The notes under the pieces were generated by a model, which saw nothing but the letters and a program-made list of their open reading frames with translations, was not told the DNA's origin and did no database searches. DNA of 64,000 nt from Verrucomicrobium spinosum DSM 4136 = JCM 18804 (GTDB taxonomy: Bacteria; Verrucomicrobiota; Verrucomicrobiia; Verrucomicrobiales; Verrucomicrobiaceae), in NCBI RefSeq assembly GCF_000172155.1, contig NZ_ABIZ01000001.1:1426001-1490000 (forward strand), read 5' to 3'. The position numbers and the translations under genes are program-made. Below, one piece after another: positions 48,229-62,536 of the stretch. How positions within the stretch are numbered: the first letter of the stretch is position 1; every line of letters begins with the position of its first letter.

Positions 48229-48278
48229 TCAAGACACAAAAAAGCGCCTCTGAAAAGAGGCGCTTTTTTGTGTCTTGA
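48229..48278. terminator. Bidirectional terminator with 23-bp perfect stem
   Basis: Arms 48229-48251 and 48256-48278 are perfectly complementary, with a GAAA loop at 48252-48255. A-runs on the 5' arm and T-runs on the 3' arm (six each) let it terminate both rnd (plus) and the regulator gene (minus), which converge here. Confidence 0.92.
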
Positions 48279-48314: not shown

Positions 48315-49679
48315 CTATGACGTGGTTTTACGCTCCACATTGAGCTCCATTTTCCGGTAAAGGGTGGCGATACTCACGCCGAGCATGCTGGCCGTCTTCT
48401 CACGACTGCCGTTGTTGAACTTGAGGGTCTCGGCAATAAAGAGCTTCTCCTGGCCGCGGATGAATTCATCCAGCGTGCCACCGATGGGCAGGCGCTGTTT
48501 GCCTTCACCGCTGGCAGGGTCGAGTGGTGCCTCCACCTTTTGGGTGACCTTGGCAGGCAGGTCGCTGGGTTTGATGGAATCTCCTTCCGCGAGGGCGCAC
48601 GCACGCTCGACCGCGTTGCGCAGTTCGCTGATGTTTCCCGGCCAGGGATATTTCTCAAGAAACTCCTCGGCAAAGGCTTCCATCCTCTTCATCCCCCGCC
48701 CGGAGCGCAGGGCTTGTTCTCTAAGAAAATGCTCCACGAGCAGGGCTATGTCTTCCCGGCGCTCACGCAGCGGCGGCACAATGATGGGCACCACTGAGAG
48801 CTTATAATAGAGATCTTCGCGGAATTTCCCATCCCGAATGGAATCTTCGAGGTGGGCTGTGGTGGAGGTGATGAGGCGGAAGTTAAATCCTGAACCATTG
48901 TACATGGTCTGGGAGGAGACTTGGGCCTGCTCCAAAAACCCGTTCAATTGCGCCTGGATGCGCATCGGCATCTGGTGGATCTCCGCAATGTGGATGGTGC
49001 CACCACGTGTGCGGGCAAAGATGCTGTTCTGTGGAGAGCCGTGACCGAAGAGCTCAGACTCAAGAAGATCTGGCGGCAGCGCGCTGCATTGGATGGCTTT
49101 GAAAGGACCGGAGCTGCGCCGGCTGCTCTCATGCAGGGCGCGAGCGATCAATTGCTTGCCGACGCCGAATTCCCCTTCAAGCAGGACAGGGCTGTCATTA
49201 TCGGCGACGCGCTGGACAATGCTGAGGATTTTTTGAATTGGCGCGCTGCCGCCTACCAGACGGGAACTGTTGGCTGCTGAGGGCGGGGCGGCTTGATAGC
49301 TGCTGGCGGCCGTTACGCTCTTCTGTCCCAGTGCTTGTTCGATCGTGCGCTTGAGGTCGGCAAGGTCGAAGGGTTTTGTGAGATAATCATAGGCGCCCAG
49401 CCGCATGGCCTCTACGGCAGTCTCTACGCTGCCGTGGCCTGTCACCATGATGATGGCGGTGCTGGCGGATTCGGCACGGGTGTGTTTGATGATTTCCAAC
49501 CCGTCAATATCACCGATGCGGAGATCCACAATCACCAGATCGGGGCGACTGTCCCTGATGCTGCTCAATCCAGCCATCCCGGTCTGGCACTGCACGACCT
49601 CGTGTCCCAAGCCACGGCAAAACTTGGCCATAAGCTCCAAGATGGACGCCTCGTCATCAATGATTACCACTTTTGCCAT
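48315..49679 (-). CDS. NtrC-like response regulator with degenerate AAA+ domain
   Basis: 454 residues. Receiver domain intact (Asp8-Asp9, phospho-acceptor D52 in VIVDLRIG, T80, K102). The central AAA+ domain keeps Walker A (GEFGVGKQ, K175) and the Arg-finger segment FREDLYYKL, but (i) the GAFTGA loop that contacts sigma-54 is missing, ELFGH being followed only by GSPQNSIFARTRGG; (ii) Walker B reads IHIAEI, with Ala at 232 in place of Asp; (iii) the sensor II Arg is Ser351 (PWPGNISELRN). The C-terminal Fis-type helix-turn-helix (REKTASMLGVSIATLYRKMEL) is intact. It probably binds DNA without activating sigma-54 polymerase. No kinase gene is adjacent. A palindrome precedes its start. Confidence 0.9.
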   Translation of the reverse strand: MAKVVIIDDEASILELMAKFCRGLGHEVVQCQTGMAGLSSIRDSRPDLVIVDLRIGDIDGLEIIKHTRAESASTAIIMVTGHGSVETAVEAMRLGAYDYLTKPFDLADLKRTIEQALGQKSVTAASSYQAAPPSAANSSRLVGGSAPIQKILSIVQRVADNDSPVLLEGEFGVGKQLIARALHESSRRSSGPFKAIQCSALPPDLLESELFGHGSPQNSIFARTRGGTIHIAEIHQMPMRIQAQLNGFLEQAQVSSQTMYNGSGFNFRLITSTTAHLEDSIRDGKFREDLYYKLSVVPIIVPPLRERREDIALLVEHFLREQALRSGRGMKRMEAFAEEFLEKYPWPGNISELRNAVERACALAEGDSIKPSDLPAKVTQKVEAPLDPASGEGKQRLPIGGTLDEFIRGQEKLFIAETLKFNNGSREKTASMLGVSIATLYRKMELNVERKTTS

Positions 49680-49716: not shown

Positions 49717-49732
49717 TTTAACCGAGGTTAAA
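49717..49732. promoter_or_regulatory. Putative operator TTTAACC-GA-GGTTAAA
   Basis: Perfect 7-bp inverted repeat 38 bp upstream of the degenerate NtrC-like regulator. Fis-type dimers bind such symmetry, so autoregulation is plausible. No second copy was noticed by eye. Confidence 0.45.
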
Positions 49733-49790
49733 CAGAGTACTCCTTTGGGTCAATCGTTTACTTCTCGAAAATGAGAATATATGGTTGTAC

Positions 49791-52241
49791 TCAGGGCTCG
49801 GCAGAGCGAGTTCGATAGGCTAGAAGAGAGTCCCAAGCACGGGAATAATCTCCCTTCTCAGCGAGGCGTACGGCATATTCGTAAAGGGTGCCTACTGGGG
49901 TATTAGGGATTCTTGTTACATCTCTCAGGGTGGTGAAGGCCTCTGCATCTAGCCCTTGTTGCCGCTGCACTTGGTACAGCCCCAAGCCGCGTACCGCGTC
50001 CATGGGATTCTGTAGAAAGCTCCGGGTCAACTGCCCAAGATCCCGGACTTCACCTGTGGCGGGAAGGGATGGCTGTCGCATGTGTTTGAACGCCAGCTCA
50101 CAAGCGTCGCGAAACTTCCCTTCGCCAGCCCAGTGTCGGCCCAGCACGATCCATCCGCTGGTGCTCCAGTTGGGATTGTTCTGAAGTTCACGGATGAGCT
50201 GATTCTTGTCACCCCTGCTGTACCAAAGCTCAAAGAGGGACAGCTTCTGGGATGGTGTGAAGTTGTCGAGACTGGGATGGCTGTCGAGCAGCTCCCGCAG
50301 GGCTGTCTGGAAGTCGCTTCCAGAGACCCGTTCCAAATAGAGGAGACGGAGCTTGGGATCCTCCGCCATGGATCGCAGCGGCTCCCGCAGATCGGGAAAG
50401 CGATGGATGTTGTCGGCGATCTGTCTGTAGTAATCGGCGGCATTGCGAGGATCCCGGCGAATGGCCTCCCGCAGAGCCGGGAGGGCCTGAAGGGGGGCGT
50501 GATCCAACCAGAGGGCGGCCTCCTGCATGCAGAAGGTGGGGGTGTTCGGTTCCAGTGCGCGAGCCCGGGAAAAGTCGTCCATCACCTGCTGATGGGGGCG
50601 GCCGAGCTGGAGGGAGATGGCGGCGCGAATGTAGTAGGCATCCCATCTCATCGGTTGAGTGGCGATGACTTTGTTCAAGGCCTCGAGCGCGTCAGCTTGA
50701 TTGCCAGAGGAGGAGAGCGCCCTGGCAGACTCCAGCTGCATCCTGGCGCTGAATGCCCCGGGCAGAACAGCCTCCCCTGAACCTACGGCCATCCACGCGA
50801 AGCCGCTGAACAAACAGATCCCGCTGGCGGTGTAGCGCAGGATGGGGACGGAGAGGTTCGCCGCAAGACGTTTGGCCGGGTGCCAGGCCAGCCCGGCGAG
50901 CAGTGCGCCGAAGGTGGCCAGCCCCAGCGTGTGGAGGGGGGTATCCACAAAAGCCTGGAGAAACAGCAGGGCGACCCCAATCCCCGCAGCAGCGCGAAGC
51001 CGCCGGTCGCGACGTCCGCTGCCGTCGGATTTCTTCCACCTTCCAAAGCCTTTCCAGATGAAATAACCTGCGGTGAATGCCGCCGCGAGGGCCAGCAGTC
51101 CGCCTTCGATGCCCAGCCAGAGCCAGTCGCTTTCCGGGTGGGCGGTGCGGGTGATCATTCCATCACCGGAGGCGGTCTTGTGCAGGGCGTACACGGGCTC
51201 GAAATTGCCGAGCCCCACCCCGATGAATGGTGCCTGAGGGATGAGCGCCAGGGATTGCTGGAAGATCTTGATCCGGCCATCACTGCTCAACGTGGAGACG
51301 ATGCCCTCCGAACCTGTGAACCGTTCCAGAATGCGCTGGCCGTAGATGAGGGAGACCGTGGCGAGAATCAACAGCAGGGAGGTGGATACGGCAAAACGCT
51401 TCGCCGAACGCGCGGCATGGCTGCCTGACATCATCCACATGCCCAGACCGACGAAGAACAACACGACCCCTGTGCGTGAGGTGTTGGCGAGGATGGCACC
51501 GAACATGGGGAGAATAGAGAGGGCAAAAACGGGCCAAGACCAGCGCTTACGGTGGTAGGCATCATATGTGCAGGCGAAGGCCAGCACCGCCCCGGAGGCC
51601 AGCAAGCCCGAGAAGTTGTTCCGGTTGGTAAAGGGGCCGTAGTAGTCAATGCGCTCGGTGCCCTGCCAGAAAATCACTTCATAGTCCCCGTAGTGCACGA
51701 CGAGGCTGGCAATGGCGATGCCAGCGATGCCCAGCACCAGCAACTGCAGCAGGGTCCGCCTTTCGGGTTCATCGAACCCCCGGGTGATGCAGACGCTGAG
51801 CCACAGGGTGCCCACGGTGAGTAATAGCACCCCCTGAAGGGTGATCCAGGGCTGGGGAGACTGGGTGCCTGGCATGATGATGCCAAAGGCGTCCCGCAAG
51901 GTGGTGCGCCACGCCGGAAGGTCAGAGTCTCCAACGGGCAGCAACCCGCACAAGGAAAAACCCAGCATCAGCAACAAGGGGGCACCGACCCATGCCGGCA
52001 CTCTGAAGCGCGGGGGCGCAGCGAAGATGGCGGCACCCATGAGCACCGTAGAGAGCCCTATCGCGAAGGGCGACCGATTCCCGCAGATGGAGATGGCCAG
52101 CAGCGGCACCGCCACCAGGAGCAAGAGAGCCCACCAAGGGGTGGGCGCGACTGGAGGGATGCTTCGGGAAGGCGGCGGGTCTTCCTCATCCTCTACGAGG
52201 GGGCGACGTGGGGACTTGGAGTTGCGTTGTCTTTTGAGCAC
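49791..52241 (-). CDS. O-antigen ligase/polymerase family membrane protein with TPR tail
   Basis: 816 residues, GTG start. A disordered basic and acidic head (about 1-32) is followed by about eleven transmembrane helices (from WWALLLLVAVPLLAISI) with the Wzy_C-type loop YYGPFTNRNNFSGLLASG and NTSRTGVVLFFVGLG near residues 200-265. From about 480 the chain is soluble and made of tetratricopeptide-like repeats (QADALEALNKVIATQPMRWD, GRPHQQVMDDFSRARALEPN). Ligase-fold enzymes join completed glycan to an acceptor or polymerise repeat units on the periplasmic side. Last gene of the glycan cluster; its start lies 8 bp from the stop of the MraY-like gene. Whether ligase or polymerase cannot be decided. 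Confidence 0.82.
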   Translation of the reverse strand: MLKRQRNSKSPRRPLVEDEEDPPPSRSIPPVAPTPWWALLLLVAVPLLAISICGNRSPFAIGLSTVLMGAAIFAAPPRFRVPAWVGAPLLLMLGFSLCGLLPVGDSDLPAWRTTLRDAFGIIMPGTQSPQPWITLQGVLLLTVGTLWLSVCITRGFDEPERRTLLQLLVLGIAGIAIASLVVHYGDYEVIFWQGTERIDYYGPFTNRNNFSGLLASGAVLAFACTYDAYHRKRWSWPVFALSILPMFGAILANTSRTGVVLFFVGLGMWMMSGSHAARSAKRFAVSTSLLLILATVSLIYGQRILERFTGSEGIVSTLSSDGRIKIFQQSLALIPQAPFIGVGLGNFEPVYALHKTASGDGMITRTAHPESDWLWLGIEGGLLALAAAFTAGYFIWKGFGRWKKSDGSGRRDRRLRAAAGIGVALLFLQAFVDTPLHTLGLATFGALLAGLAWHPAKRLAANLSVPILRYTASGICLFSGFAWMAVGSGEAVLPGAFSARMQLESARALSSSGNQADALEALNKVIATQPMRWDAYYIRAAISLQLGRPHQQVMDDFSRARALEPNTPTFCMQEAALWLDHAPLQALPALREAIRRDPRNAADYYRQIADNIHRFPDLREPLRSMAEDPKLRLLYLERVSGSDFQTALRELLDSHPSLDNFTPSQKLSLFELWYSRGDKNQLIRELQNNPNWSTSGWIVLGRHWAGEGKFRDACELAFKHMRQPSLPATGEVRDLGQLTRSFLQNPMDAVRGLGLYQVQRQQGLDAEAFTTLRDVTRIPNTPVGTLYEYAVRLAEKGDYSRAWDSLLAYRTRSAEP

Positions 52242-52249
52242 CTAGGGTA

Positions 52250-53734
52250 CTAGGGGGTGAGGTTTGCTTTTGGCGTAGCGATGGGTCTGGAATCAAGGGA
52301 ACCTGCCGCAGGTGTGAATTCAATGTCCGACAGACGGCCCCATCTTTCTGTGGCGAGATTGAGGGCGGGAATGAGCTGGTCCGCCTTGGCCACCCAACGA
52401 TCTGCCATGTCAGCGTCGTCCGGCACGTAGAGACGGCAGGTCAGGTCTGTGATGAGTGAGAAATCCAGCGGGCGGAACCCGGCCGCTGGGGCAAGCTTGA
52501 CCCCAATGCGCTCCGTACCCAGGCGGAAGAGCATGAGAAACTCATCGGCCTCCAGCGATCTTTCTGCCTCCCACTCCAGCACCTTGCCATAGGCGGCAGT
52601 GTAGAGCATGTCCCGGCGTCGGTTGAGCGCTTCTCTGAACTGGGCCCGTACTTCCCGCCAACTGCGGACATACCCCAGATAGCGCGCTGCGCCCAGCCCC
52701 AGCAGGAACAGGGCTGCGGTGGCAATCGGCAAAGAAAGACCGCGATTCCAGAAGAGACTGATGCCGAAGAGGCTGAGCACCAGGCACACCGTATAGAGGG
52801 CAATGAGCGCCTTGGCCTTGCTGAAGCCCAGCAACATCAGGCGATGATGGATATGCTGGGCATCGGCGCGGAAGATGGGTACTCCGCGCAAGAGCCGGCG
52901 AATGATGGCAAAGAGGGTGTCAAGAATCGGCACGCCCAGAGCGATGATGACCACCAGCAATGAGGCGATGATCGTCCCCTTGTTGGAGGAAAGGAGGGAG
53001 ACAGAGGCGACAAAGAAGCCAATGAGGTAGGCTCCTCCATCCCCAAGGAAGATGCGCGCCGGTGGCAGGTTGAAGACGAGAAAGCCAATGAGGGCACCGC
53101 TCATGACCACAGAGATGAGCACCACGTCCGGCATCCTGGCAAAGTGGCCAACAAATGCGAGGGTGAGGCTGAGGAACAGGCCAAATCCCGTGGCCAGCCC
53201 ATCCATACCGTCGATGAGATTGATGATGTTGGGGATGGAGATGAGCCAAAGGAGGGTGATCGGGAGCCCCCACCATCCCAACACGATCTGCCCCTCGCCA
53301 AAGGGGTTGGACAAGCTGTCGATCGAGATGCCCAACGCGTAGAGGATGCAGGCGGCACCTATCTGACCGACAAGCTTGACCCGCGCCCCCAGCGGACGCA
53401 GATCGTCCGCGAAGCCCACGGAAAAGATGAGCAGATTGGTGAGGATGATCGGCCACCATTGAGCGAAGAAATCTGGAAGCCACCAGGTAGCGAATGCAAA
53501 GCCCAGGCAGAGCGCCACGAAGACCGGAAGCCCGCCCAATCTTGGCACTGGTGTTGTGTGCAGTTTCCGATGTTGATCCGGATGGTCCATGCCCAGCCCG
53601 GAATTTTGGCGAATGATGAGCCAGGTGCCGAGCGCACTGACCAAGATGGCCCCCGTAAAGAGGAGCCACATCATCGGGGAGGGCACCCGCGGCAGGGGGA
53701 GATCCAATGCCAATAGACTGTGTAAATGGGACAT
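52250..53734 (-). CDS. Undecaprenyl-phosphate N-acetylhexosamine-1-phosphate transferase, MraY/WecA family
   Basis: 494 residues, about eleven transmembrane helices. Diagnostic motifs: DHPDQHRKLHTTPVPRLGG (substrate loop), IPNIINLIDGMDGLATG (catalytic Asp pair), FLGDGGAYLIGF and HIHHRLMLLGFSKAKA. This set is typical of WecA/TagO rather than MraY. It loads a sugar phosphate on the lipid carrier to start a glycan. The soluble C-terminal tail of about 130 residues (from about 360) is longer than in WecA and unassigned. It gives the window a second starter enzyme besides the gene at 35094. Starts 3 bp past the next glycosyltransferase stop. Confidence 0.9.
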   Translation of the reverse strand: MSHLHSLLALDLPLPRVPSPMMWLLFTGAILVSALGTWLIIRQNSGLGMDHPDQHRKLHTTPVPRLGGLPVFVALCLGFAFATWWLPDFFAQWWPIILTNLLIFSVGFADDLRPLGARVKLVGQIGAACILYALGISIDSLSNPFGEGQIVLGWWGLPITLLWLISIPNIINLIDGMDGLATGFGLFLSLTLAFVGHFARMPDVVLISVVMSGALIGFLVFNLPPARIFLGDGGAYLIGFFVASVSLLSSNKGTIIASLLVVIIALGVPILDTLFAIIRRLLRGVPIFRADAQHIHHRLMLLGFSKAKALIALYTVCLVLSLFGISLFWNRGLSLPIATAALFLLGLGAARYLGYVRSWREVRAQFREALNRRRDMLYTAAYGKVLEWEAERSLEADEFLMLFRLGTERIGVKLAPAAGFRPLDFSLITDLTCRLYVPDDADMADRWVAKADQLIPALNLATERWGRLSDIEFTPAAGSLDSRPIATPKANLTP

Positions 53735-53737
53735 CCG

Positions 53738-54889
53738 TCAGGAGATTATGCGGGGCGACCGGACCAGTTGGACAAGGCGCTGGTGCCAATCATCCACGGC
53801 GAGAGTCTGGATGGACGCAAGTTTTCCATGCCATTCCGGGCAAGAGACAACCGCAGCAGGCACGGAGCCGCCTGACATCTGATTGCGCAGCCAGTCGGTC
53901 ACTCCTTGGCAATCACCCGGTGCAAAGAGACCTGCTCCGGGATGGTTCTTTTGGAGCATTCGAGCGATGCCGCCTTCGGTGGGGCCTATCCAGAGGATCG
54001 GCCGGTTCAGGTGCTTCAGAACGGCGAGTTTGGACGGCCAGAGCAGACCCTGGGTTTCGACTTTTTGAGTGGCGACGAGCACATCTGCCCTAAGCAAGGA
54101 GGAGACCAGTTGCTCGTCTGGTGCGTAGTCCAGCCAGCGGCACCGTCGCAGTCCAAGTTCCGCTGCCCGATGTTTTGCCCATGGAATCTGCGGGCCGCGC
54201 CCTTGGAATACGAGGTCCGCTTCCAGTCCCGCTGCCTCCAGCTGATGCTGAGTTTGAAGGAGGGTTTCAACATCGTGCGCCCGGCCCAAATTGCCCGAGT
54301 AGAGCCAGGTGAAACTGGATGGGGATTGCGAAACTATCGGCTGGCTAACTATTGAGGCCGCAGTGATTGTCGAAGGAGGCCACGGGGGGCAGAGATGAAG
54401 CCGGGGGTCGGTTTTGAGCTGGAGAGCGTCTGCCATGTCCTCGTCCAGACACCCGATCAGCTCACAGCGTCGAAGGCCGAGCTGCACCGCCTTGTCAAGC
54501 CAACGGTAGGGAGGGCTTTTCGGGGATACCTCCCCCAGGGCGGCTGCGATTTGGGGGTAAACATCCATGACCCAGTGGGCGAGAGGAATGCGCCGGATGC
54601 GGGAGATGAGCGAGGCGGTGAAGACGAGGCCCGGTGGGTCGGACAGGCAGAAAATCACGTCAGGTCGCGGAGCAAGACAGCCTGCGACGAAGAGTCTCCC
54701 ATGTGCCCAGCCTTCACGCATCCACCGCTTGAAGCCGCCCGAGCCCGTGCCTTGTCGGTAACTGCCCCCTGCGGATCTGCTGAAGACCTCCCAACCACGC
54801 GCCTGAAGTCCAGTGCCCAACTCGGCCAGCAACCGGGCCGTGGGGGCTGGATCCGGGGAGGTGAACTTGTTGAGGAGAAGGATGCGCAT
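53738..54889 (-). CDS. Glycosyltransferase family 4 (WcaI/WbuB-like)
   Basis: About 383 residues from the ATG at 54889 (MRILLLNKFTSPDPAPTARL), the normal opening of this family; the longer frame from 54991 overlaps the next gene and lacks similarity. GT-B fold with FTWLYSGNLGRAHDVETLL and LVFQGRGPQIPWAKHRAAE as the donor-side strands; the usual E-x7-E is replaced by LWPSKLAVLKHLNRPILWIG, as in WcaI proteins. Transfers a sugar from a nucleotide donor to the growing lipid-linked unit at the cytoplasmic face. Acceptor and donor unknown. Confidence 0.82.
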   Translation of the reverse strand: MRILLLNKFTSPDPAPTARLLAELGTGLQARGWEVFSRSAGGSYRQGTGSGGFKRWMREGWAHGRLFVAGCLAPRPDVIFCLSDPPGLVFTASLISRIRRIPLAHWVMDVYPQIAAALGEVSPKSPPYRWLDKAVQLGLRRCELIGCLDEDMADALQLKTDPRLHLCPPWPPSTITAASIVSQPIVSQSPSSFTWLYSGNLGRAHDVETLLQTQHQLEAAGLEADLVFQGRGPQIPWAKHRAAELGLRRCRWLDYAPDEQLVSSLLRADVLVATQKVETQGLLWPSKLAVLKHLNRPILWIGPTEGGIARMLQKNHPGAGLFAPGDCQGVTDWLRNQMSGGSVPAAVVSCPEWHGKLASIQTLAVDDWHQRLVQLVRSPRIIS

Positions 54890-54912
54890 GAGCTGGCAGA
54901 TGCCAGTATCTT

Positions 54913-55674
54913 TTACTCCACCCCGTAAAGGGAGCCTGGATCCGCGTGCCACTTCTTCCGGAGCAGGTACACGTCCCGGAACATCCGCCATGAATCCCGA
55001 AAGAGGTGAATCTTGCCGCCGGGGATTTCACTCCAGTCCACAGGGAACTCTGAGATGTCACAGCCTGCGTGCCGGAGGGCCATCATCAGATCGACGTCAA
55101 AGGCGAAGCCCATAAGCGTGAGCCGGTCCCGGACGGATTCAAATACCCGGCGCGGGACCACTTTGCAGCCGCACTGGGTGTCATAGACGGGTACGTGGAG
55201 CAGCTCGGAAACGAGCGTTGCATAGATGCGCCCGACGAGATGCCGGTGAAAGAGGCGATGAACATTGCGTCCCAGCATCTTGACCCTGGAGGCGAACCAG
55301 GCGTGGGGGGCAACGTCCTGGCGGGCGGATCGGACAGCAGTCACCAGCCGGGCAATCTCGGAGGCGGACACCGCCCCATCGGCGTCGGCGAACGCCAGCC
55401 ATTGCTCACCCTGATGGGCGGACCAGCCAGCATACACCGTGCCCCCCTTCCCAACGTTCTGCGGCAGAGCCAGCATCGGCCGCACAAAGGGGTGGGCGGA
55501 GCGGTATTCATCGACCAGGGCGCGAAGCTTTCCGGCTTCCTCCTCACCGCTCCCGTCATCCACCACCAGGATGGAGACACCGCCAACATCTCCCAGCACC
55601 CTGCAAAGGTCGGAGAGAAAGGGGCGGAGACGGGTGCTCTCGCGAAAACAAGGAATGACGAGCAACAAATTCAA
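54913..55674 (-). CDS. Glycosyltransferase family 2 (dolichyl-phosphate-glucose synthase-like)
   Basis: 253 residues, TTG start at 55674 in LLLVIPCFRESTRLRPFLSD, which is the very first beta strand of the GT-A fold; the nearest in-frame stop upstream is only 12 bp before it and no ATG is available, so a non-standard start is forced. Motifs: ILVVDDGSGEEE, FADADGAVSASEI and DTQCGCKVVPRRVF, which place it with DPM1/ALG5-type polyprenyl-phosphate sugar synthases. The tandem heptamer array begins immediately upstream (55681), so the original 5' end may have been replaced by repeat expansion. Confidence 0.82.
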   Translation of the reverse strand: MNLLLVIPCFRESTRLRPFLSDLCRVLGDVGGVSILVVDDGSGEEEAGKLRALVDEYRSAHPFVRPMLALPQNVGKGGTVYAGWSAHQGEQWLAFADADGAVSASEIARLVTAVRSARQDVAPHAWFASRVKMLGRNVHRLFHRHLVGRIYATLVSELLHVPVYDTQCGCKVVPRRVFESVRDRLTLMGFAFDVDLMMALRHAGCDISEFPVDWSEIPGGKIHLFRDSWRMFRDVYLLRKKWHADPGSLYGVE

Positions 55675-55680
55675 AATGAT

Positions 55681-55813
55681 GAATTATGAATTATGAATTA
55701 TGAATGCGGAATGCGGAATGCGGAATGCGGAATGCGGAATGCGGAATGCGGAATGCGGAATGCGGAATGCGGAATGCGGAATGCGGAATGCGGAATGCGG
55801 AATGCGGAATGAT
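55681..55813. repeat. Heptamer tandem array: 3 x GAATTAT, 15 x GAATGCG, 1 x GAATGAT
   Basis: Nineteen consecutive 7-bp units without interruption (55681-55701, 55702-55806, 55807-55813). The array fills the gap between two glycosyltransferase genes of the same strand, starting 7 bp before the TTG of one and ending at the stop codon of the other. Unit number can change by slippage; being seven bases long, each change shifts spacing between the genes, not a reading frame. Confidence 0.98.
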
Positions 55814-56596
55814 TCAGGTTCGAGGAAGTTTTTTCTGGAGGCGGTGGTCGAGGAGGTGAAGGGCTAGTATGACCTCTGCGAGGACCCGCTGCAATGTGTA
55901 GAACCACCCGCGCCAACCATCGAAGAGGAGCCCTTTTGCGAAGAGGCAGTAGATCAGAGTCGCGAAGGGGGCGAGGACCATGGACTTGCGAAGCCGGTCC
56001 TGGAGGGACAGGCTGGCATCGAGGGCTGTAGCGAGTTTTTCGGCCTCCAACAAGGCGTACCTGTCCTGGGACTGAATCCACCGCGTGAGGGATTTGCGGT
56101 CATCATGATTGATGAAGCTTTGGATCAGGCCAGTCGTCCCGTTGATATCTAGCAGTTGGGTGTGTCCGTCCTGCCGGTAGGTGCAGGCTTCCTTGCGGAA
56201 AAGCACGGCACGCGGCGGGTAGAGCGTGGCCCGGAGAGGCCGGCCGGCGATGCAGTAGCGGAAGCGTGCATGATAAGCGACCACGCTGGGAACTGGGGCG
56301 AGAGATGCCAGTTCGGAAACAAATCCCGGATCGAGGACATAATCAGCGTCCAGTGCCAGGATCCATGGGGAATCCGCCAAGGCCACGCCGTGGTTCCACT
56401 GTGAGGTGTGATCGTCAAAGGCACGCTGCTGGAAGGTGACGTTGGGGAAGGCCCTGGCAATCGCCGCTGTCCCGTCCGTGCTGTGGCTGTCCAACACCAC
56501 AACCCTGGGGAACGCTGTGAGTGGTTCCAGGCAGCGGGCCAGGTTGGGTGCCTCGTTCCAGGTGAGGATGAGGGGGGTGATGTGGGCCAGATTCAC
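55814..56596 (-). CDS. Glycosyltransferase family 2 (WaaE/KdtX-like)
   Basis: 260 residues, GTG start overlapping the stop of the neighbouring glycosyltransferase (GTGA). GT-A fold: ILTWNEAPNLARCL, VVVLDSHSTDGTAAIARAF and the metal-binding LALDADYVLDPG. The sequence QRAFDDHTSQWNHGVALAD between them is the pattern of WaaE-like transferases. A C-terminal amphipathic or transmembrane segment (LLFDGWRGWFYTLQRVLAEVILALHLLDH) suggests membrane association. Donor and acceptor unknown; its stop abuts the heptamer array. Confidence 0.85.
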   Translation of the reverse strand: MNLAHITPLILTWNEAPNLARCLEPLTAFPRVVVLDSHSTDGTAAIARAFPNVTFQQRAFDDHTSQWNHGVALADSPWILALDADYVLDPGFVSELASLAPVPSVVAYHARFRYCIAGRPLRATLYPPRAVLFRKEACTYRQDGHTQLLDINGTTGLIQSFINHDDRKSLTRWIQSQDRYALLEAEKLATALDASLSLQDRLRKSMVLAPFATLIYCLFAKGLLFDGWRGWFYTLQRVLAEVILALHLLDHRLQKKLPRT

Positions 56597-57771
56597 GATG
56601 TCATTTTGCCTGTGCCTACCACTTCGCCGTAGAGTTTTACAAGCCGGGCTCCCACAGCCTCCAGTGAATAGCGGGACGCCACGAAAGATGCAGCATCTTC
56701 ACCGAGGCGCATCCGTTCAACTGGGCTTGATGCTAGTAAAGCGATAGCGTCTGCCAGTGCGTCCTCCTTGGCTTCGCTTCGGACAACGGCGGACGCTGCT
56801 TCATGGGCTAGCGCCACTCCAGGGGTGGCGACACAGGCCCGGCCAGATGCCATCGCTTCGAGGAGTGCAATTCCGAAATTCTCGGAATGGGAGGGCAGCA
56901 CAAATACATCTGCAGCAGCCAGGGCGGACAGCTTGAATTGATTATCCAGAAAGCCGGTCCATATGACCTTGTGATCAACTCGAAGGTTTGAAGCCAGAGT
57001 TTTGAGTTCGGCCTCGTATTTGGCAGGGGCATTGCCCGCGAGTACTAGCACAGCGTCTGGATGACGTTGTTGGATTAGGGCGAAGCTCTTTAGCAACAAC
57101 TCCACTCCTTTTTTTGGATCTATCCGGGAGAGGAACAAAATTAAAGGGGAGGACTGCGCGGCTGGAAAGCGCTCGAAGAACAGTGACGTTGAAGGCAGAT
57201 TAGAGAACGGTCTCAGATCAATTCCCAAAGGCAGAATCGCCGTTTGCGAGGTTAGTTGCAACGGGGCAGCTTCATCAGCCTCAGCCTGACTGGTGAAGTG
57301 AATTTTTGCAGCATGTTGTAGAAGAGGTCTTTCAAGTAGCCGAAACGAAATGGACTTGAGCCAGGGGCGCCTGTGGGTCATGCCCCAGTTATTGAGCAGG
57401 CCTAAGGGGCGAACTACGTAGGGGATGCGATGGCGACGGGCAGCATGTGCAGCTGCCCAAGGTGCGTAGGAAAAAAGTGCGTGAATGTGAACGAGATCGA
57501 ACTTGGTAATGTTCTCCTTCAGCCAGCGGCCTAGAGGTCGGGATGCCTTGTAAAATTGGGTTTGCCTTGGAAATTCATGAAGGGTAAATCGTGCATCGTT
57601 GGGGAAAGAGCTGCGGCCCACAACTTCGACTTCGCTTGAGCTGGGCCAGCGTGTGGTCGCGACCGTCACTTCCACGTCATGCTTGATAAGGCCATGGGCC
57701 ATCGCTACCATTGCGAAACTCGGCCCACCATCGCTCCGATCAAGCGAAGGAATGATATGGAGGACCTTCAT
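56593..57771 (-). CDS. Glycosyltransferase family 4
   Basis: 392 residues. Opens MKVLHIIPSLDRSDGGPSF, typical of GT4. Donor domain has LFLSRIDPKKGVELLLKSF, LAGNAPAKYEAELKTLAS and the E-x7-E motif in SENFGIALLEAMASGRACVA (catalytic acid pair). The N-terminal acceptor domain contains VHIHALFSYAPWAAAHAAR. Sugar specificity cannot be read. Its start codon overlaps the asparagine-synthase stop and its stop overlaps the start of the GT2 gene (ATGA and GTGA), so these three genes are translationally coupled. Confidence 0.9.
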   Translation of the reverse strand: MKVLHIIPSLDRSDGGPSFAMVAMAHGLIKHDVEVTVATTRWPSSSEVEVVGRSSFPNDARFTLHEFPRQTQFYKASRPLGRWLKENITKFDLVHIHALFSYAPWAAAHAARRHRIPYVVRPLGLLNNWGMTHRRPWLKSISFRLLERPLLQHAAKIHFTSQAEADEAAPLQLTSQTAILPLGIDLRPFSNLPSTSLFFERFPAAQSSPLILFLSRIDPKKGVELLLKSFALIQQRHPDAVLVLAGNAPAKYEAELKTLASNLRVDHKVIWTGFLDNQFKLSALAAADVFVLPSHSENFGIALLEAMASGRACVATPGVALAHEAASAVVRSEAKEDALADAIALLASSPVERMRLGEDAASFVASRYSLEAVGARLVKLYGEVVGTGKMTS

Positions 57772-59588
57772 CGAAAAGTGCTTGGAGTGATCCGGTGTTT
57801 TTCAAGCCAATGCACCAGCATGAACAAGCTCCAGCGCTCATACCATGTCGGATGTTTCATCGGGAAGGACTTGGTCAGTGAATCAAACTGTTGTTTCCAC
57901 TCTGGGGTTGCCAACCATTTTTGGTAAGGAAATAAGAAGCCCCGTTTCGGCTGATTTTTTATCCATGGTGGAATCTCCGGCACTGCATCCACCAGAAGCA
58001 TTTTGCCCATGCGAAGGCGCAAGCTGGCAGGCACTTTCGCGACGGATTCGAATAGAGTCTTGTCGACCAAGGGTACCCGCAGTTCCAGCCCGTGGGCCAT
58101 GCTCATGACATCACTGTCGCGAAGCAATTGGTTTCGCATATAGTGGGTCAGCTCGAGTGCGCTTACCGCATCGGGCCCGTCTTGTGGAATGGACCAACTC
58201 GACGAGCTTTGCTTCATCGAGACCTGTGGACGGTTGAGAACGAGACTTGCCAGGGCCTTGGCTTCTTCATGAGTTCTAATGCTGCGAAAACTGCTGTAGG
58301 CATCGGCGATTGTCGCTGGGGCGGGAGAGGTCAGAAGACTTCCCAAACGACGCAGGCGCGAACTCCGCCCGTGTAGTTGAAGAGATCGACCTGCCAACCC
58401 GTTCAACTTCGCGAAAGCGAGAGTTTTGTGCAGGCGCTGCAGGCGGGGCACCTGCCTGAAGCTGGGATATCCTCCGAAAACTTCATCGCCACCCAAGCCG
58501 CTGAGTACCACCTTCATGCCGTGATGACGGGCAAGGGATGCGACGCAATAGGTGTTGAACCCGTCGATCGTCGGCTGATCCACAGAGTCGAGAAATTTTG
58601 CGAAGAGTTCTGCGCCTGTTTCTGCGCTGAGGTGCATTTCGTGATGGATGGCACCGAAGTGTTTGGCTGTGCGTGCTGCTGGGCCGGTTTCATCAGCGAC
58701 TGAATCGTCGACCCCGATGCTGAAGGTCTGAAGACGGTCTCGCCCAGTCGCATTGGCCAATGCTAGCAGCGCGGTGGAATCAATGCCGCCGCTCAAAAAC
58801 AGGCCCACTGGTACGTCACTCACAAAGTGGTGCTCAATGCTGTCAAGGAGTGCCAATCTTGCGAGTTGCACGCTCTCCGCAAGATCGGAGCAGTTTGAGA
58901 CTGGAAATCCGACTTCCCACCAGCGTGTGATCGTCGTGTGCCCGGCTCGCCAAGTGAGGTGACAACCCGCCTCAAGCATGGACACGCCTTCGAGCAGCGT
59001 GCGAGGTTCCGGAACCGAACCACTTTGGAGAAAAAGGCAGACACTTTCTTCATCTGGCCTGAGGGGCACAAAACCGGATGCGATCATGCTGCGCAACTCC
59101 GAAGCAAATACTATATTTCCGTTCTGGTCAGCATAATAGAGCGGCTTGATGCCAAAAGGATCCCGCGCAAGAAAGCAAGTTTCTTCTTGGTGATCCCAGA
59201 TTGCGAAAGCAAACATGCCTCGCAAACTCTGCAGACAGGCTGCTCCCTGTCGGGCATAAAGCTGGAGCACGACCTCAGTGTCCGTTCCTGTGGAAAACGG
59301 CACACCACTATCCTCTAGTTCTTGCCGGAGCGCCCCGAAGTTGAAGATCTCACCGTTGAATGTGATGGTAAAGCGACCATCTGGGCTGCTCATCGGCTGG
59401 ATGCCAGCCGGGGAAAGATCCAGGATGGCCAAGCGGGCGTGTGCGAACGCTGCGGTGTGACACGGCGACTGCCAAGAAGAGCTCCCGTCAGGCCCACGGT
59501 GACGCAATGCATCAAGCATGGCCTGTAGCTGGTCTGTCCGGATGGTTCCGGAGGGGTTGCTTTCGACGATGCCTGCGATGCCGCACAT
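57768..59588 (-). CDS. asnB: Asparagine synthase (glutamine-hydrolysing) family, glycan-cluster type
   Basis: 606 residues. N-terminal glutaminase with catalytic Cys2 (MCGIAGIVE), the ATP-PPase with FLSGGIDSTALLALANATG and GGDEVFGGYPSFR, and LARDPFGIKPLYYA in between; all needed residues are present. Family members in polysaccharide clusters often amidate sugar acids or other carboxylates rather than make free asparagine, so the substrate here may be a uronic acid on the glycan (inference). It lies inside a run of glycosyltransferase genes: 2 bp after the GT4 gene at 59591 and overlapping the next by 4 bp. Confidence 0.9.
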   Translation of the reverse strand: MCGIAGIVESNPSGTIRTDQLQAMLDALRHRGPDGSSSWQSPCHTAAFAHARLAILDLSPAGIQPMSSPDGRFTITFNGEIFNFGALRQELEDSGVPFSTGTDTEVVLQLYARQGAACLQSLRGMFAFAIWDHQEETCFLARDPFGIKPLYYADQNGNIVFASELRSMIASGFVPLRPDEESVCLFLQSGSVPEPRTLLEGVSMLEAGCHLTWRAGHTTITRWWEVGFPVSNCSDLAESVQLARLALLDSIEHHFVSDVPVGLFLSGGIDSTALLALANATGRDRLQTFSIGVDDSVADETGPAARTAKHFGAIHHEMHLSAETGAELFAKFLDSVDQPTIDGFNTYCVASLARHHGMKVVLSGLGGDEVFGGYPSFRQVPRLQRLHKTLAFAKLNGLAGRSLQLHGRSSRLRRLGSLLTSPAPATIADAYSSFRSIRTHEEAKALASLVLNRPQVSMKQSSSSWSIPQDGPDAVSALELTHYMRNQLLRDSDVMSMAHGLELRVPLVDKTLFESVAKVPASLRLRMGKMLLVDAVPEIPPWIKNQPKRGFLFPYQKWLATPEWKQQFDSLTKSFPMKHPTWYERWSLFMLVHWLEKHRITPSTFR

Positions 59589-59590
59589 GA

Positions 59591-60757
59591 TCAGGCGTAG
59601 GGTGGACGGTTTTTCGGCATCAACTTTTGCAGAGGTGCTGCCAGTCGGGCCTTAAATGCTTCAAAGCCAAATGCCGCTTTCACCGCGGCACTGAGTGCCA
59701 TTGGCTGAAAGAGCAACTTGTTGGGGTACTTTTGATCGAGGATTGACAATACTGCGTCCGCCAAGGCGACTTTGTCGTCCGGATCGACAAGCACGCCAAG
59801 ACGCCCCTGATCCAGGGCATCTGTTGATCCGTCTTGGTTTCCTGCAATGACAGGCCGACCGCTTGCCATGGCTTCCAAGAACACGATGCCAAATCCTTCA
59901 GCTTTGCTGGGCATCACAAAGATGTCGCAAAGCCGGTAGAGATCGGGAAGTTCTTCCGTGGGTATGAACCCAGTAAAGATCACTGAATCTGCCACGCCTA
60001 GGCGTAAGGCCTCCGATTTAAGGTAGCCAAGATCATCCCCTGTGCCTGCGACAATATAGCGCATGTTCGGGCATCGGTTCAGGATGCCCGGCATTGCGGC
60101 GAGCATGGTTTCATGTCCCTTGTAACGCTCTGACCGGTCGACTCTGGCAACTGTCAGGGCGATTGGTTGATCAATGTGGAGACCATAGCGGGAAAGGAGG
60201 TTGTCGGGCTTTGGCCCGGGGGAGAACCTGCTCTCATCGAATGAACAGGGAAGCAGCGATGCTTTCGCCAGATCGAGACCATGTCGAGCCGCGGAGCTGC
60301 GCAATGTGAATCTACTTACGGCATACAACCAGTCTGCAGAAGCCAGAGCCCGGCGTCGGGAAGCCGGAAGCGGGTTCCACGCTTCGATGCCGTGGAGGAC
60401 TCCCACATACGGGCTGCGAAGGAGGCGTGCCAACGGAAGTACTGCCGGCATGAAGTTCAGATGAAAGCAAATGATGCAGTCAGGGCGTTCACGAAGCGCA
60501 TGGTACCATCCGATCAACACCATGGCGGCGGTTCGCAATCTCAATGGCATCCGGGCTGCCGAAGAGCACCTTACATTTTGTGCAAGTATTGGGTCAGATG
60601 AGGGCAGGCAATCGTTCTTCGCAATCACACGAATGGCCGCATTGGGAAACAGATGGCGCACTGCCTGGGTTGCTTGCCGGGAGAATGCCTGGATGCCTCC
60701 TGCGCCTGGGGAAAGGCCCGGTGCCCAAAGGTGGATGACCTGCTGAGGGGGAGACAC
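59591..60757 (-). CDS. Glycosyltransferase family 4
   Basis: 388 residues, GTG start. N-terminal region GLSPGAGGIQAFSRQATQAV, donor domain with ALTVARVDRSERYKGHETML, IVAGTGDDLGYLKSEALRLG and the E-x7-E stretch AEGFGIVFLEAMASGRPVIA followed by GNQDGSTDAL, a pattern of WbdB/PimB-type retaining transferases. The middle contains IICFHLNFMPAVLPLARLLR. Cytoplasmic or peripheral membrane. The preceding gene in the operon direction is the methyltransferase, whose stop is 71 bp away. Confidence 0.9.
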   Translation of the reverse strand: MSPPQQVIHLWAPGLSPGAGGIQAFSRQATQAVRHLFPNAAIRVIAKNDCLPSSDPILAQNVRCSSAARMPLRLRTAAMVLIGWYHALRERPDCIICFHLNFMPAVLPLARLLRSPYVGVLHGIEAWNPLPASRRRALASADWLYAVSRFTLRSSAARHGLDLAKASLLPCSFDESRFSPGPKPDNLLSRYGLHIDQPIALTVARVDRSERYKGHETMLAAMPGILNRCPNMRYIVAGTGDDLGYLKSEALRLGVADSVIFTGFIPTEELPDLYRLCDIFVMPSKAEGFGIVFLEAMASGRPVIAGNQDGSTDALDQGRLGVLVDPDDKVALADAVLSILDQKYPNKLLFQPMALSAAVKAAFGFEAFKARLAAPLQKLMPKNRPPYA

Positions 60758-60827
60758 TAAATGGGAGATGGTTTTTTGATGCAGGTGAGCGAACTGGTTG
60801 CAGCGGAAGGGACAATTTTGGCCCTGC

Positions 60828-61550
60828 TCAACTCTTTGACGAGTTCCATTCTCTCAGAGTCTTGCATTTCCGGAGGCCCTCCATGAGACGTTCACTTGTC
60901 GCCATCACGATCGTGCCTCTTTTTGCACCAGTCTCTGAATGTCCGGCAAGGCTAGGGAAAAACCAAGGGCGCTGGGAAAATGGTGTTCCACGCAAGTACA
61001 ACACGTTAAGAGCCCGGCCCTCGCCATAGTTGTCGTATGAATAGCTGGGATCATCAGGTACTTCAAAGTCATCGATCATGATGACGGCAGGCACATTGCT
61101 GGAGTGGATGATTTCCAGTTCCTCCTTTAACGGCAGGTCTTCGTGCCAGTGGGCATCGAGATAGATAAACGTCCAGGTGGTTTTGACTTTGTCAGAATTC
61201 AGATGGTGCTGCAGAAACGGCCGGCTGTCTCCTTGGTTCAGCCGTACCATGGGGTTCCTCGCAAATTTGGCCGAAGAGAAACCGAAGAACCTTGGATTGT
61301 ACTCCACCGAAGTCACTGGCAATCCTGAGACGGACTGCATGAATTCTGTAGAGATGCCGCGGAACGATCCAGTTTCAACAATCTGCTGAAATTTGAATTG
61401 CTGCAGGAGCTCTTTAAAAATCTCCTGGCGAAAGTTCTGTCCATTGAACGGACCGCCGCCGCCCCAGCTGTTGTTCTTTCGCGGATACAGGTAGTACTCC
61501 AGAGTGCCGAACAGTCTGGAGTTTTTCAGGAACCCTGGGATGATCGTCAT
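60828..61550 (-). CDS. Class I SAM-dependent methyltransferase-like protein
   Basis: 240 residues. Seen motifs are IVETGSFRGISTEFMQ (SAM-binding motif I variant), VTSVEYNPRFF (acidic end of strand 2), NQGDSRPFLQHHL and FIYLDAHWHEDLPLKEELEI. The last resembles cephalosporin-hydroxylase/TylF-like sugar O-methyltransferases, where the DAHW site binds metal. Suggested to methylate a sugar or lipid-linked intermediate of the glycan. The family assignment is from motif shape only. Confidence 0.75.
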   Translation of the reverse strand: MTIIPGFLKNSRLFGTLEYYLYPRKNNSWGGGGPFNGQNFRQEIFKELLQQFKFQQIVETGSFRGISTEFMQSVSGLPVTSVEYNPRFFGFSSAKFARNPMVRLNQGDSRPFLQHHLNSDKVKTTWTFIYLDAHWHEDLPLKEELEIIHSSNVPAVIMIDDFEVPDDPSYSYDNYGEGRALNVLYLRGTPFSQRPWFFPSLAGHSETGAKRGTIVMATSERLMEGLRKCKTLREWNSSKS

Positions 61551-61633
61551 AGGTTAGGGGGGCTTGTGTGACGATGAGTCTTCGAGTGGTTCTGCATAGT
61601 CGAGTCGCGTAAGTTTCTTTCGTTGTGCGATAG

Positions 61634-62533
61634 TTAAGTGGAGCGTCGCCTTTCCAATTTCCTGAGGCGATGCCAGCCGAGAACCGCAGAGGCACTGGCA
61701 GGTTGACGAAATCGCCTAAGGGCAAAAAGGCGGCAGGGCAACAGCAACATGCCCAGAAGTGCCGCAGCGAGCGTGCCATGGGAAATTTCCCAGCGCATAC
61801 GGGTGGCGACATGCCAGAACATCAAGGGTGTCAGCCAGCAAGGATATCGGAGGAAAGGCAGGAGTCCTGCGTTGACAACCATTTCAGCCCGTTCCTGACA
61901 GCTGTGCCGATCCGGTGACGCTGACAGGTGGATCACTGGCAACTTTGAATCGTAAAGGATGATGCCTCCGTGTTGGTAGAGTTGCAGACTCAAGTCCAGT
62001 TCTTCCATGCCATAGGCAACACGACGGGGGACGTAGCCAGGAAGCTTCTGATAGGCGGACTTTCGATAGACGCAGCCACAGCCCTCAAACTCTGCCACTC
62101 TAATAGGGCAGTCAGATGGGGGGGTGCCCTTCGCCGGAGAAGTCGCGGCTGCCAGCATGGTCGCCTCTGGGTGGAACCGGAAAACCCATTCGACTCTTGA
62201 AAAGAACGACGGATCGGCGGGGAAGGAATCGTCATCGAAGGAGACAACAATCTCATGAAGAGCGGCATTGATGAGAAGGTGACGTGCGCCGCCGGGACCC
62301 AGCCTCTCAGGTGAGGAAAAAATCCGCACCTCCGGCCAAAACCGCTCAATAGACTCAAGGATGCCTGGATCGGCACCGTCTACATGAACACAAACGTCGT
62401 CCGGAGCTGGGGTGCACGCGTGGATGACTGACAGTGTATGCAGCAACCCTTCGCGCCTAGTGCTGGCGGGAATGACTACGGATACTTGAATTTTGGTGCA
62501 AGCTCCGCAGGTCAACAACGAAGGATCATCCAT
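61634..62533 (-). CDS. Glycosyltransferase family 2
   Basis: 299 residues. GT-A fold: VSVVIPASTRREGLLHTLSV, VCVHVDGADP, GGARHLLINAALHEIVVSFD and the metal site FDDDSFPADPSFF; C-terminal LWHRLRKLERR tail. Two hydrophobic segments near residues 235-270 (LTPLMFWHVATRMRWE, AALLGMLLLPCRLFAL) suggest membrane anchoring. Donor and acceptor unknown. It starts 3 bp from the stop of the polymerase gene. Confidence 0.87.
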   Translation of the reverse strand: MDDPSLLTCGACTKIQVSVVIPASTRREGLLHTLSVIHACTPAPDDVCVHVDGADPGILESIERFWPEVRIFSSPERLGPGGARHLLINAALHEIVVSFDDDSFPADPSFFSRVEWVFRFHPEATMLAAATSPAKGTPPSDCPIRVAEFEGCGCVYRKSAYQKLPGYVPRRVAYGMEELDLSLQLYQHGGIILYDSKLPVIHLSASPDRHSCQERAEMVVNAGLLPFLRYPCWLTPLMFWHVATRMRWEISHGTLAAALLGMLLLPCRLFALRRFRQPASASAVLGWHRLRKLERRRST

Positions 62534-62536
62534 GCG

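Follow-up and report, generated by a model that had tools for sequence, protein, structure and literature searches.

The window, a stretch of 64,000 nucleotides (G000:C1:1426001-1490000) in a host genome that consists of a single 8.22-Mb contig, carries on its minus strand a gene for a 454-residue regulator. Pfam finds a receiver (Response_reg, residues 4-113), a PF00158-type AAA+ domain (Sigma54_activat, 142-299, 2e-38), AAA_lid_14 (305-383) and a Fis-type HTH (HTH_8, 411-445), the architecture of an NtrC-type EBP. We aligned the protein with nine canonical proteins and verified the place of each stretch below by translation. The switch, sensor and Arg-finger positions are those that we take to correspond from general knowledge of PspF and NtrC.

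48315-49679, minus strand: regulator gene, 454 residues, ATG start; receiver, degenerate AAA+ part of the sigma-54 activator type, Fis-type HTH (open reading frame and Pfam)
49341-49670, minus strand: receiver domain, residues 4-113 (Pfam, alignment, translation)
49524-49526, minus strand: phospho-acceptor Asp52 (alignment)
49152-49175, minus strand: Walker A, GEFGVGKQ, residues 169-176, Lys175 retained; canonical GESGTGKE (alignment, translation)
49089-49091, minus strand: Gln197 in place of the glutamate-switch Asn (alignment, translation)
49023-49043, minus strand: shortened L1 loop, HGSPQNS, residues 213-219, without GAFTGA and 8 residues shorter than canonical (alignment, translation)
48984-48986, minus strand: Ala232 in place of the Walker B Asp (alignment, translation)
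48981-48983, minus strand: Walker B catalytic Glu233, retained, adjoining Ala232 (alignment, translation)
48858-48860, minus strand: Thr274 in place of the sensor I Asn (alignment, translation)
48801-48821, minus strand: Arg287 (first Arg finger, retained) to Lys293 (second Arg finger; Arg in canonical proteins) (alignment, translation)
48627-48629, minus strand: Ser351 in place of the sensor II Arg (alignment, translation)
48345-48449, minus strand: Fis-type HTH, residues 411-445, the best-conserved part of the loopless family described below (Pfam, alignment, translation)

A preliminary description of this DNA had proposed that the GAFTGA loop is deleted, the Walker B Asp replaced by Ala and the sensor II Arg by Ser, and the alignment bears out all three. 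The interval from FG to F spans 8 residues (HGSPQNSI) in the window protein versus 16, with GAFTGA or GSFTGA, in canonical proteins; the Walker B stretch reads GGTIHIAEIH against canonical GGTLFLDEIG, and the sensor II stretch WPGNISEL against WPGNVREL. Beyond these three changes, the switch Asn, the sensor I Asn and the second Arg finger are lost and Walker A is modified. The receiver and the HTH, described as intact, are so by their Pfam matches and by the retention of Asp52, Thr80 and Lys102.

The host genome encodes seven further strong PF00158 proteins. Six of these paralogues were aligned; all have the loop and an Asp-Glu Walker B, and they are 31-35% identical to the regulator. RpoN was found in all 57 genomes of relatives searched, so sigma-54 is not absent; five of them (G010, G017, G021, G023 and G033) have two RpoN matches each and the remaining 52 have one.

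The losses are shared by a family of orthologues

Orthologues of at least 40% identity occur in 47 of the 57 relatives searched and in 34 of the 36 from the same family. The ten relatives in which none was found are G002 and G016 (76 and 86% complete), G039, G046 and all six members of family f2. Of 239 genomes of the order, 137 have a match with E no higher than 1e-108. Loci from about 122 of these 137 were fetched and yielded 120 distinct loopless sequences once near-identical tails were dropped; the 15 left out include G418 (371 bits, perhaps canonical).

Among 118 distinct orthologues at least 44% identical to the window protein, a count that selects by identity alone and is independent of the loop, none has the GAFTGA loop, the switch Asn or the sensor II Arg. 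Among less similar proteins (below 44%), two are loopless (L062 and L165) and 31 have the loop, the closest of the latter at 43%. Losses shared so widely exclude chance or sequencing error as their source in the window protein. Aligning orthologues had been proposed as a check on the preliminary description, with a normal GAFTGA and Walker B in orthologues as the refuting case; the losses are conserved, and no such protein is present among the order's orthologues examined.

The 120-member set was chosen as loopless and 31 comparison proteins were chosen as loop-bearing, such that loop counts in these two sets hold by definition; their other residues are informative. No loopless member of the 120 has the switch Asn or the sensor II Arg; four have the sensor I Asn, and three (L060, L061 and L062) the Walker B Asp. 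All 120 retain the Walker B Glu and the first Arg finger, and 119 the Walker A Lys, which is Arg in the other; the phospho-Asp is present in all 119 members having letters at that position. At the second Arg finger, 91 members have Lys and 29 have Arg. The 31 loop-bearing proteins all have the Walker B Asp and Glu, the sensor I Asn, the sensor II Arg and both Arg fingers, and 29 have the switch Asn. One strongly diverged loopless member, L165 (G371), belongs to the window's own family; it is 36% identical, sits on a long branch and has a Walker B Cys-Glu and a three-residue loop.

Synonymous and non-synonymous changes were compared in nine pairs of close relatives. The pN/pS ratio is 0.012-0.087 for the AAA+ part and 0-0.056 for the HTH, with synonymous sites near saturation in several pairs. 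The AAA+ values indicate strong purifying selection and a protein that is in use, AAA+ part included. The HTH has a mean majority frequency of 0.87, the highest of the family's parts. Fold prediction returns the expected domains at moderate confidence (mean pLDDT 79.4, pTM 0.54), and the top Protein Data Bank (PDB) matches of the predicted structure are Brucella NtrX structures, with VpsR structures also among the matches.

A probable single origin of the loopless clade

In a tree of 64 proteins (33 loopless and 31 canonical), a single branch, supported at 100/99, separates the loopless proteins from the canonical ones, and the same branch is recovered without the loop and catalytic columns (100/98). 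One change between loopless and canonical suffices in 100% of 200 bootstrap trees, with and without those columns. The placement of the long rows, L165 and the paralogues, is uncertain according to a warning from the tool. The tree neighbours of the loopless clade are canonical proteins of other orders in the class, 36-43% identical and with all catalytic features intact. The nearest relatives outside the order are thus canonical, and this shows that the family descends from a sigma-54 activator.

Other samples of relatives were also surveyed. Among the best 80 relatives listed in named genomes, 13 are loopless, all with Verrucomicrobia titles and 49-100% identity; among the best 80 listed, a string search of the whole locus found a GAFTGA-like string in 60 loci and GAFTSA, GAFTDA or GSFTDA in 7. 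Plasmid records gave 237 matches, every one below 60% identity.

The simplest account is a single change of mechanism, in the ancestry of the families within the order that have the regulator. The loop, the switch Asn and the sensor II Arg were probably lost first and the Walker B Asp later, because L060 and L062 form a separate long branch and still have the Walker B Asp. L061, placed elsewhere in the tree, has either kept or regained it.

A palindrome beside a predicted sigma-70-type promoter

Two predicted elements lie upstream of the regulator gene.

49725-49753, minus strand: predicted sigma-70-type promoter, TTGAC (49749-49753), 18 bp, TAACCT (49725-49730), after the pattern TTGAC-N18-TAnnnT of close relatives
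49762-49777: predicted operator, palindrome TTCTC-ATTTTC-GAGAA as read on the minus strand; the only full motif match in the window

The palindrome TTC[TG]C-N6-G[AC]GAA occurs exactly in 32 of 119 upstream regions of the family, against a mean of 0.18 and a maximum of 2 in 50 first-order Markov shuffles, and the pattern TTGAC-N18-TAnnnT occurs in 52 of 56 promoters of relatives above 58% identity (mean 0.09, maximum 1 in 100 shuffles) and 1 of 63 others; the upstream regions are related by descent, so the shuffles overstate significance. Exact palindromes are concentrated in relatives above 58% identity, nearly all of family f1 (28 of 56, versus 4 of 63 elsewhere), and in 22 of these 56 promoters the best motif match has at least two mismatches. 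At 50 sites with up to one mismatch, TTGAC follows after 7 or 8 bp in 31 and after 16 bp in one, and is absent in 18. Counting sigma-70 mismatches over whole upstream regions gave results only somewhat better than shuffles, and the fixed-spacing pattern is the better test. With TAnnnT taken as the -10 box, the palindrome is centred near -51, upstream of the -35 box. The candidate site and the predicted sigma-70-type promoter beside it are conserved in relatives above 58% identity and hardly outside them. Sequence resembling -24/-12 elements is no commoner at regulator promoters than in shuffles.

The motif is also present, though weaker, on the canonical side of the tree. In a canonical sister clade of 14 genes, it occurs with up to one mismatch within 200 bp in 10 (0.9 in shuffles, maximum 4 in 200 shuffles), and nine of the 14 genes have two copies, allowing up to two mismatches, 17 bp apart. 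Further canonical groups have it in one of eight and none of nine genes, and a strict sigma-54 pattern was not found upstream of canonical genes. That the sister clade shares the motif and that the HTH is best conserved argues that the palindrome belongs to the regulator line and outlived the change of mechanism.

A probable second target

We searched whole genomes for the operator, using genomes picked mostly because their regulator promoter has the site. The operator with TTGAC occurs at seven places in six of eight genomes, of which six are regulator promoters and the seventh is an additional site in the host genome, whereas the reversed control gave two places in the eight genomes. The strict palindrome occurs 15 times in seven genomes: seven times before the regulator, five before an orthologous gene for a P-loop protein and three elsewhere; its reversed control had sites in three of the seven.

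The P-loop gene has a match in 34 of the family's 36 genomes, with open frames of about 750-935 in most; in the host it lies at L324 (G000:C1:5894152-5895318, minus strand), with orthologues at L298-L327. A motif model trained on regulator promoters only was applied to 30 P-loop loci fetched from 40 matches. The best site in the locus falls within -150 to +60 of the opening of the P-loop open reading frame in 28 of the 30, and in 23 of the 25 that remain once the five loci of the discovery are set aside. Position alone would predict about 1.5 of 30, and symmetric permuted models give a mean of 7.3 and a maximum of 17 in 300 trials; the mean top score is 12.0, versus -0.1 for permuted models. 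The 28 sites score from -0.8 to 26.4 bits, some of them weak. Counted by mismatches, the motif occurs with up to one in 21 of the 30 upstream regions versus 2.3 expected. The host site, which scores 12.0, lies within the open frame yet before the likely ATG. The P-loop gene is a probable second target of the regulator.

The middle part of the P-loop protein (about 750-935 residues) is of low complexity. Pfam placed AAA_16 under its cut-off in two versions and returned nothing for a third or for the host version. Searches for a sequence match in the PDB and in PHROGs found none, PADLOC returned only a meaningless score, and the best match in a fold search, RdrA, is not significant (E 0.06). In the leader between operator and gene, at L278, L279, L281, L287 and L289, a short frame reading MIWHKYH and a stop (or close variants) is conserved after GGAG; it could be a leader peptide or merely a conserved promoter stretch.

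A looser motif gives 17 rows in the host genome versus 8 for its control, and further targets or chance sites exist there beyond the regulator and P-loop genes. One operator-like site of 16.3 bits lies between convergent open reading frames (L295, position 1190).

Gene neighbourhood

Upstream of the regulator lies the last gene of a glycan run.

49791-52241, minus strand: O-antigen ligase-like gene (Wzy_C) with a weak TPR match, the last glycan-run gene before the regulator

The run occupies window positions 49791-63925 and L292 on the minus strand and includes, with Wzy_C, a WecA-like gene, several glycosyltransferases and an asparagine-synthase-like amidotransferase; beyond it, minus-strand open reading frames continue for about 18 kb past the window. 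The preliminary description had looked to this cluster for targets, and the glycan cluster as a regulon is not supported, the only exact site in the window being the regulator's own promoter. With one mismatch, the motif has 11 matches in the window against 7.6 expected; the second-best site scores 9.8 bits versus 26.9 for the best and lies inside a coding glycan gene at position 58404, and in the next 19 kb beyond the window the best operator-like site scores 5.6. The cluster may nevertheless contain a weak site, because some accepted sites elsewhere score no higher than 9.8 bits.

Of 41 loci, 16 have the run ending in Wzy_C-regulator and 12 have a convergent RNase D gene; this count missed the regulator in L049, L052, L053 and L084, and L063-L065 in it hold canonical proteins. 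This gene order is a habit of the lineage rather than an order-wide link. A phmmer search with a single kinase query found no kinase beside the regulator, in the order's other scanned loci or in L292; its only matches were in L063 and L064, which hold canonical proteins, and in L144, a canonical sister. Between the RNase D-like gene and the regulator, an inverted repeat with 22-bp arms and runs of A and T (window 48230-48277) is a probable two-way terminator.

Proposed mechanism and alternatives

Given the residues lost, ordinary sigma-54 activation by the regulator is very unlikely, and the 'sigma-54-dependent' label invited by the domain match is very likely wrong for this gene. Evolution has probably redirected the regulator to ordinary promoters, its own included. 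We put at about 65% the probability that it is a self-regulating response regulator that does not hydrolyse ATP, needs no sigma-54 and acts at sigma-70 promoters. On this proposal, an ancestral sigma-54 activator would have lost its mechanism once, in the line to the order's families that carry the regulator, retaining the receiver as input and the HTH as DNA reader. The AAA+ part would persist as a non-hydrolysing fold, likely for oligomerisation and perhaps for nucleotide binding; its remaining elements could hold a nucleotide and reach a neighbour, and those for ATP turnover and sigma-54 contact are gone. Phosphorylation of Asp52 would presumably set the oligomeric state and hence promoter output. 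The regulator would bind TTC[TG]C-N6-G[AC]GAA adjoining sigma-70-type promoters, first its own (autoregulation) and probably also that of the conserved P-loop protein gene; on the site, a phosphorylation-controlled dimer or oligomer would contact or block the sigma-70 polymerase. We infer the binding of the palindrome by the regulator, the binding of ATP without hydrolysis and the partnership with sigma-70 polymerase. The AAA+ part may be a nucleotide-gated or ATP-independent oligomeriser, as the preliminary description proposed; the retention of the Walker A Lys, the Walker B Glu and the first Arg finger would agree with this, as would the strong purifying selection.

Its further suggestion, a repressor or a sigma-70 activator, fits the promoter architecture. 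Of the two we slightly favour activation, because the palindrome stands at a nearly constant distance from the -35 box, on its upstream side, with its centre near -51. Repression is a strong rival, and in its pure form, with an HTH dimer blocking the regulator's own and the P-loop promoters and the AAA+ part as mere dimer scaffold, it has a substantial chance of being correct. In 12 of the 14 canonical sister genes, the last 70 bp or so before the start codon contain motif copies with up to two mismatches, as pairs 17 bp apart in nine of them, and this position is typical of autorepression. In close relatives, however, the site lies 7-8 bp upstream of the -35 box and not over the promoter, where contact activation fits better, and repression by the HTH alone would not readily explain why the AAA+ part is so strongly constrained. 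The palindrome could instead be the site of an unrelated regulator that controls both the regulator gene and the P-loop gene, in which case the finding on the protein would stand. Some genera have lost the site at the regulator promoter while their P-loop gene retains a variant, as this would allow; yet the motif tracks the regulator's lineage on both sides of its divergence from the canonical relatives, and 12 of the 15 strict palindromes in the seven selected genomes lie at the regulator promoter (7) or the P-loop gene (5), and we consider this improbable.

Somewhat more improbable still is an unusual sigma-54 role, in which the protein, for example, is a subunit mixed into the rings of another of the seven sigma-54-activator-type proteins and serves as brake or DNA anchor. 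The presence of RpoN in 57 of 57 genomes, the seven other strong PF00158 proteins in the host and the invariant first Arg finger and Walker B Glu are compatible with such a role, and DNA-binding mutants of the GAFTGA-less Caulobacter NtrC are reported to influence sigma-54 transcripts (PMC12421884). Regulator promoters nevertheless have no excess of -24/-12 sequence, and the six aligned paralogues are only 31-35% identical, with upstream regions that lack the motif at up to one mismatch. The loss of many catalytic residues might also suggest a decaying paralogue without function, a reading that we regard as negligible in view of the AAA+ pN/pS of 0.012-0.087, the highly conserved HTH and the presence of the protein in 47 of 57 relatives.

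Returning to the sigma-70 reading, we would extend it only tentatively, to a switch without a motor, perhaps one that senses ATP, which the order would have made from a sigma-54 motor. It would still use the ancestral operator, now at sigma-70 promoters, its core regulon would be itself and the P-loop protein, and its losses would have begun with the loop, the switch and sensor II, with the Walker B Asp later. If this is true, the clade holds a stepwise natural record of an enhancer-dependent activator becoming a regulator of the housekeeping polymerase.

Relation to known GAFTGA-less regulators

GAFTGA-less relatives have been reported, including Rhodobacter capsulatus NtrC, Caulobacter NtrC, HupR, TyrR, DhaR, VpsR and YplP (PMC10274813, PMC3162934 and PMC12421884), and a genome survey counted about 110 homologues whose motif deviates slightly (PMC3162934). 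Such NtrC-like regulators are thus already known, and the window family is a more degenerate, newly described variant; we found no description of this loopless verrucomicrobial family in the open-access literature. Known examples are single proteins, mostly from Proteobacteria, whereas here a clade extends across several families of an order. Together with its canonical sisters, the shared operator type and the recurrent second target, this clade allows both mechanisms to be compared on similar DNA sites, and it is a test of the purpose for which the AAA+ fold is retained once its motor is dead.

The canonical sisters (22 of the 31 comparison proteins, 36-43% identical) are neighbours of the family in the tree and have a similar HTH, and their 14-gene clade has a similar operator; unlike the window protein, they retain all catalytic and sigma-54-contact features. 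NtrX of Brucella abortus (PDB 5m7n, 5m7o and 5m7p) resembles the window protein in its receiver, AAA+ and HTH domains, its short L1 loop without GAFTGA and its replaced sensor I Asn, but the alignment shows that it retains the Walker B Asp-Glu, the switch Asn, the sensor II Arg and both Arg fingers. By these residues, the window family is more degenerate than NtrX. The window protein scores 303.5 bits, below the 600-bit cut-off of NCBIfam NtrX, and one phmmer query found no kinase gene, the partner to be expected beside an NtrX gene, at the family loci scanned.

Caulobacter NtrC has, like the window protein, an eight-residue L1 deletion (PMC10274813). Both it and R. capsulatus NtrC lack GAFTGA and reportedly regulate sigma-70 promoters (PMC10274813), a link that for the window protein is predicted; the loss in the window family arose in a different phylum. 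The Walker A Lys and the Walker B Asp are reported to be required in Caulobacter NtrC in vivo, whereas the window family has the latter in 3 of 120 members, and R. capsulatus NtrC is reported to require the binding of ATP and not its hydrolysis (PMC10274813). Given that Caulobacter NtrC is reported to need its Walker B Asp without a GAFTGA (PMC10274813) and that its DNA-binding mutants reportedly raise sigma-54-dependent transcripts (PMC12421884), the lost loop alone does not prove independence from sigma-54.

The loss of GAFTGA is common to the window protein and the sigma-70-acting group of R. capsulatus NtrC, HupR, TyrR and VpsR. VpsR of Vibrio cholerae, which is described as lacking GAFTGA, acting at sigma-70 promoters, linked to polysaccharide and reportedly ATP-independent (PMC10274813 and PMC3162934), is likened to the window protein by this description and by the fold match; it binds c-di-GMP according to the title of PDB 7v2b. 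PrsR, the PEP-CTERM response regulator (TIGR02915), shares the window protein's architecture and lies near exopolysaccharide genes. It is described as interacting with sigma-54 and has a kinase gene nearby, whereas the window protein is without GAFTGA and scores 259.5 bits, short of the 502.6 needed for TIGR02915.
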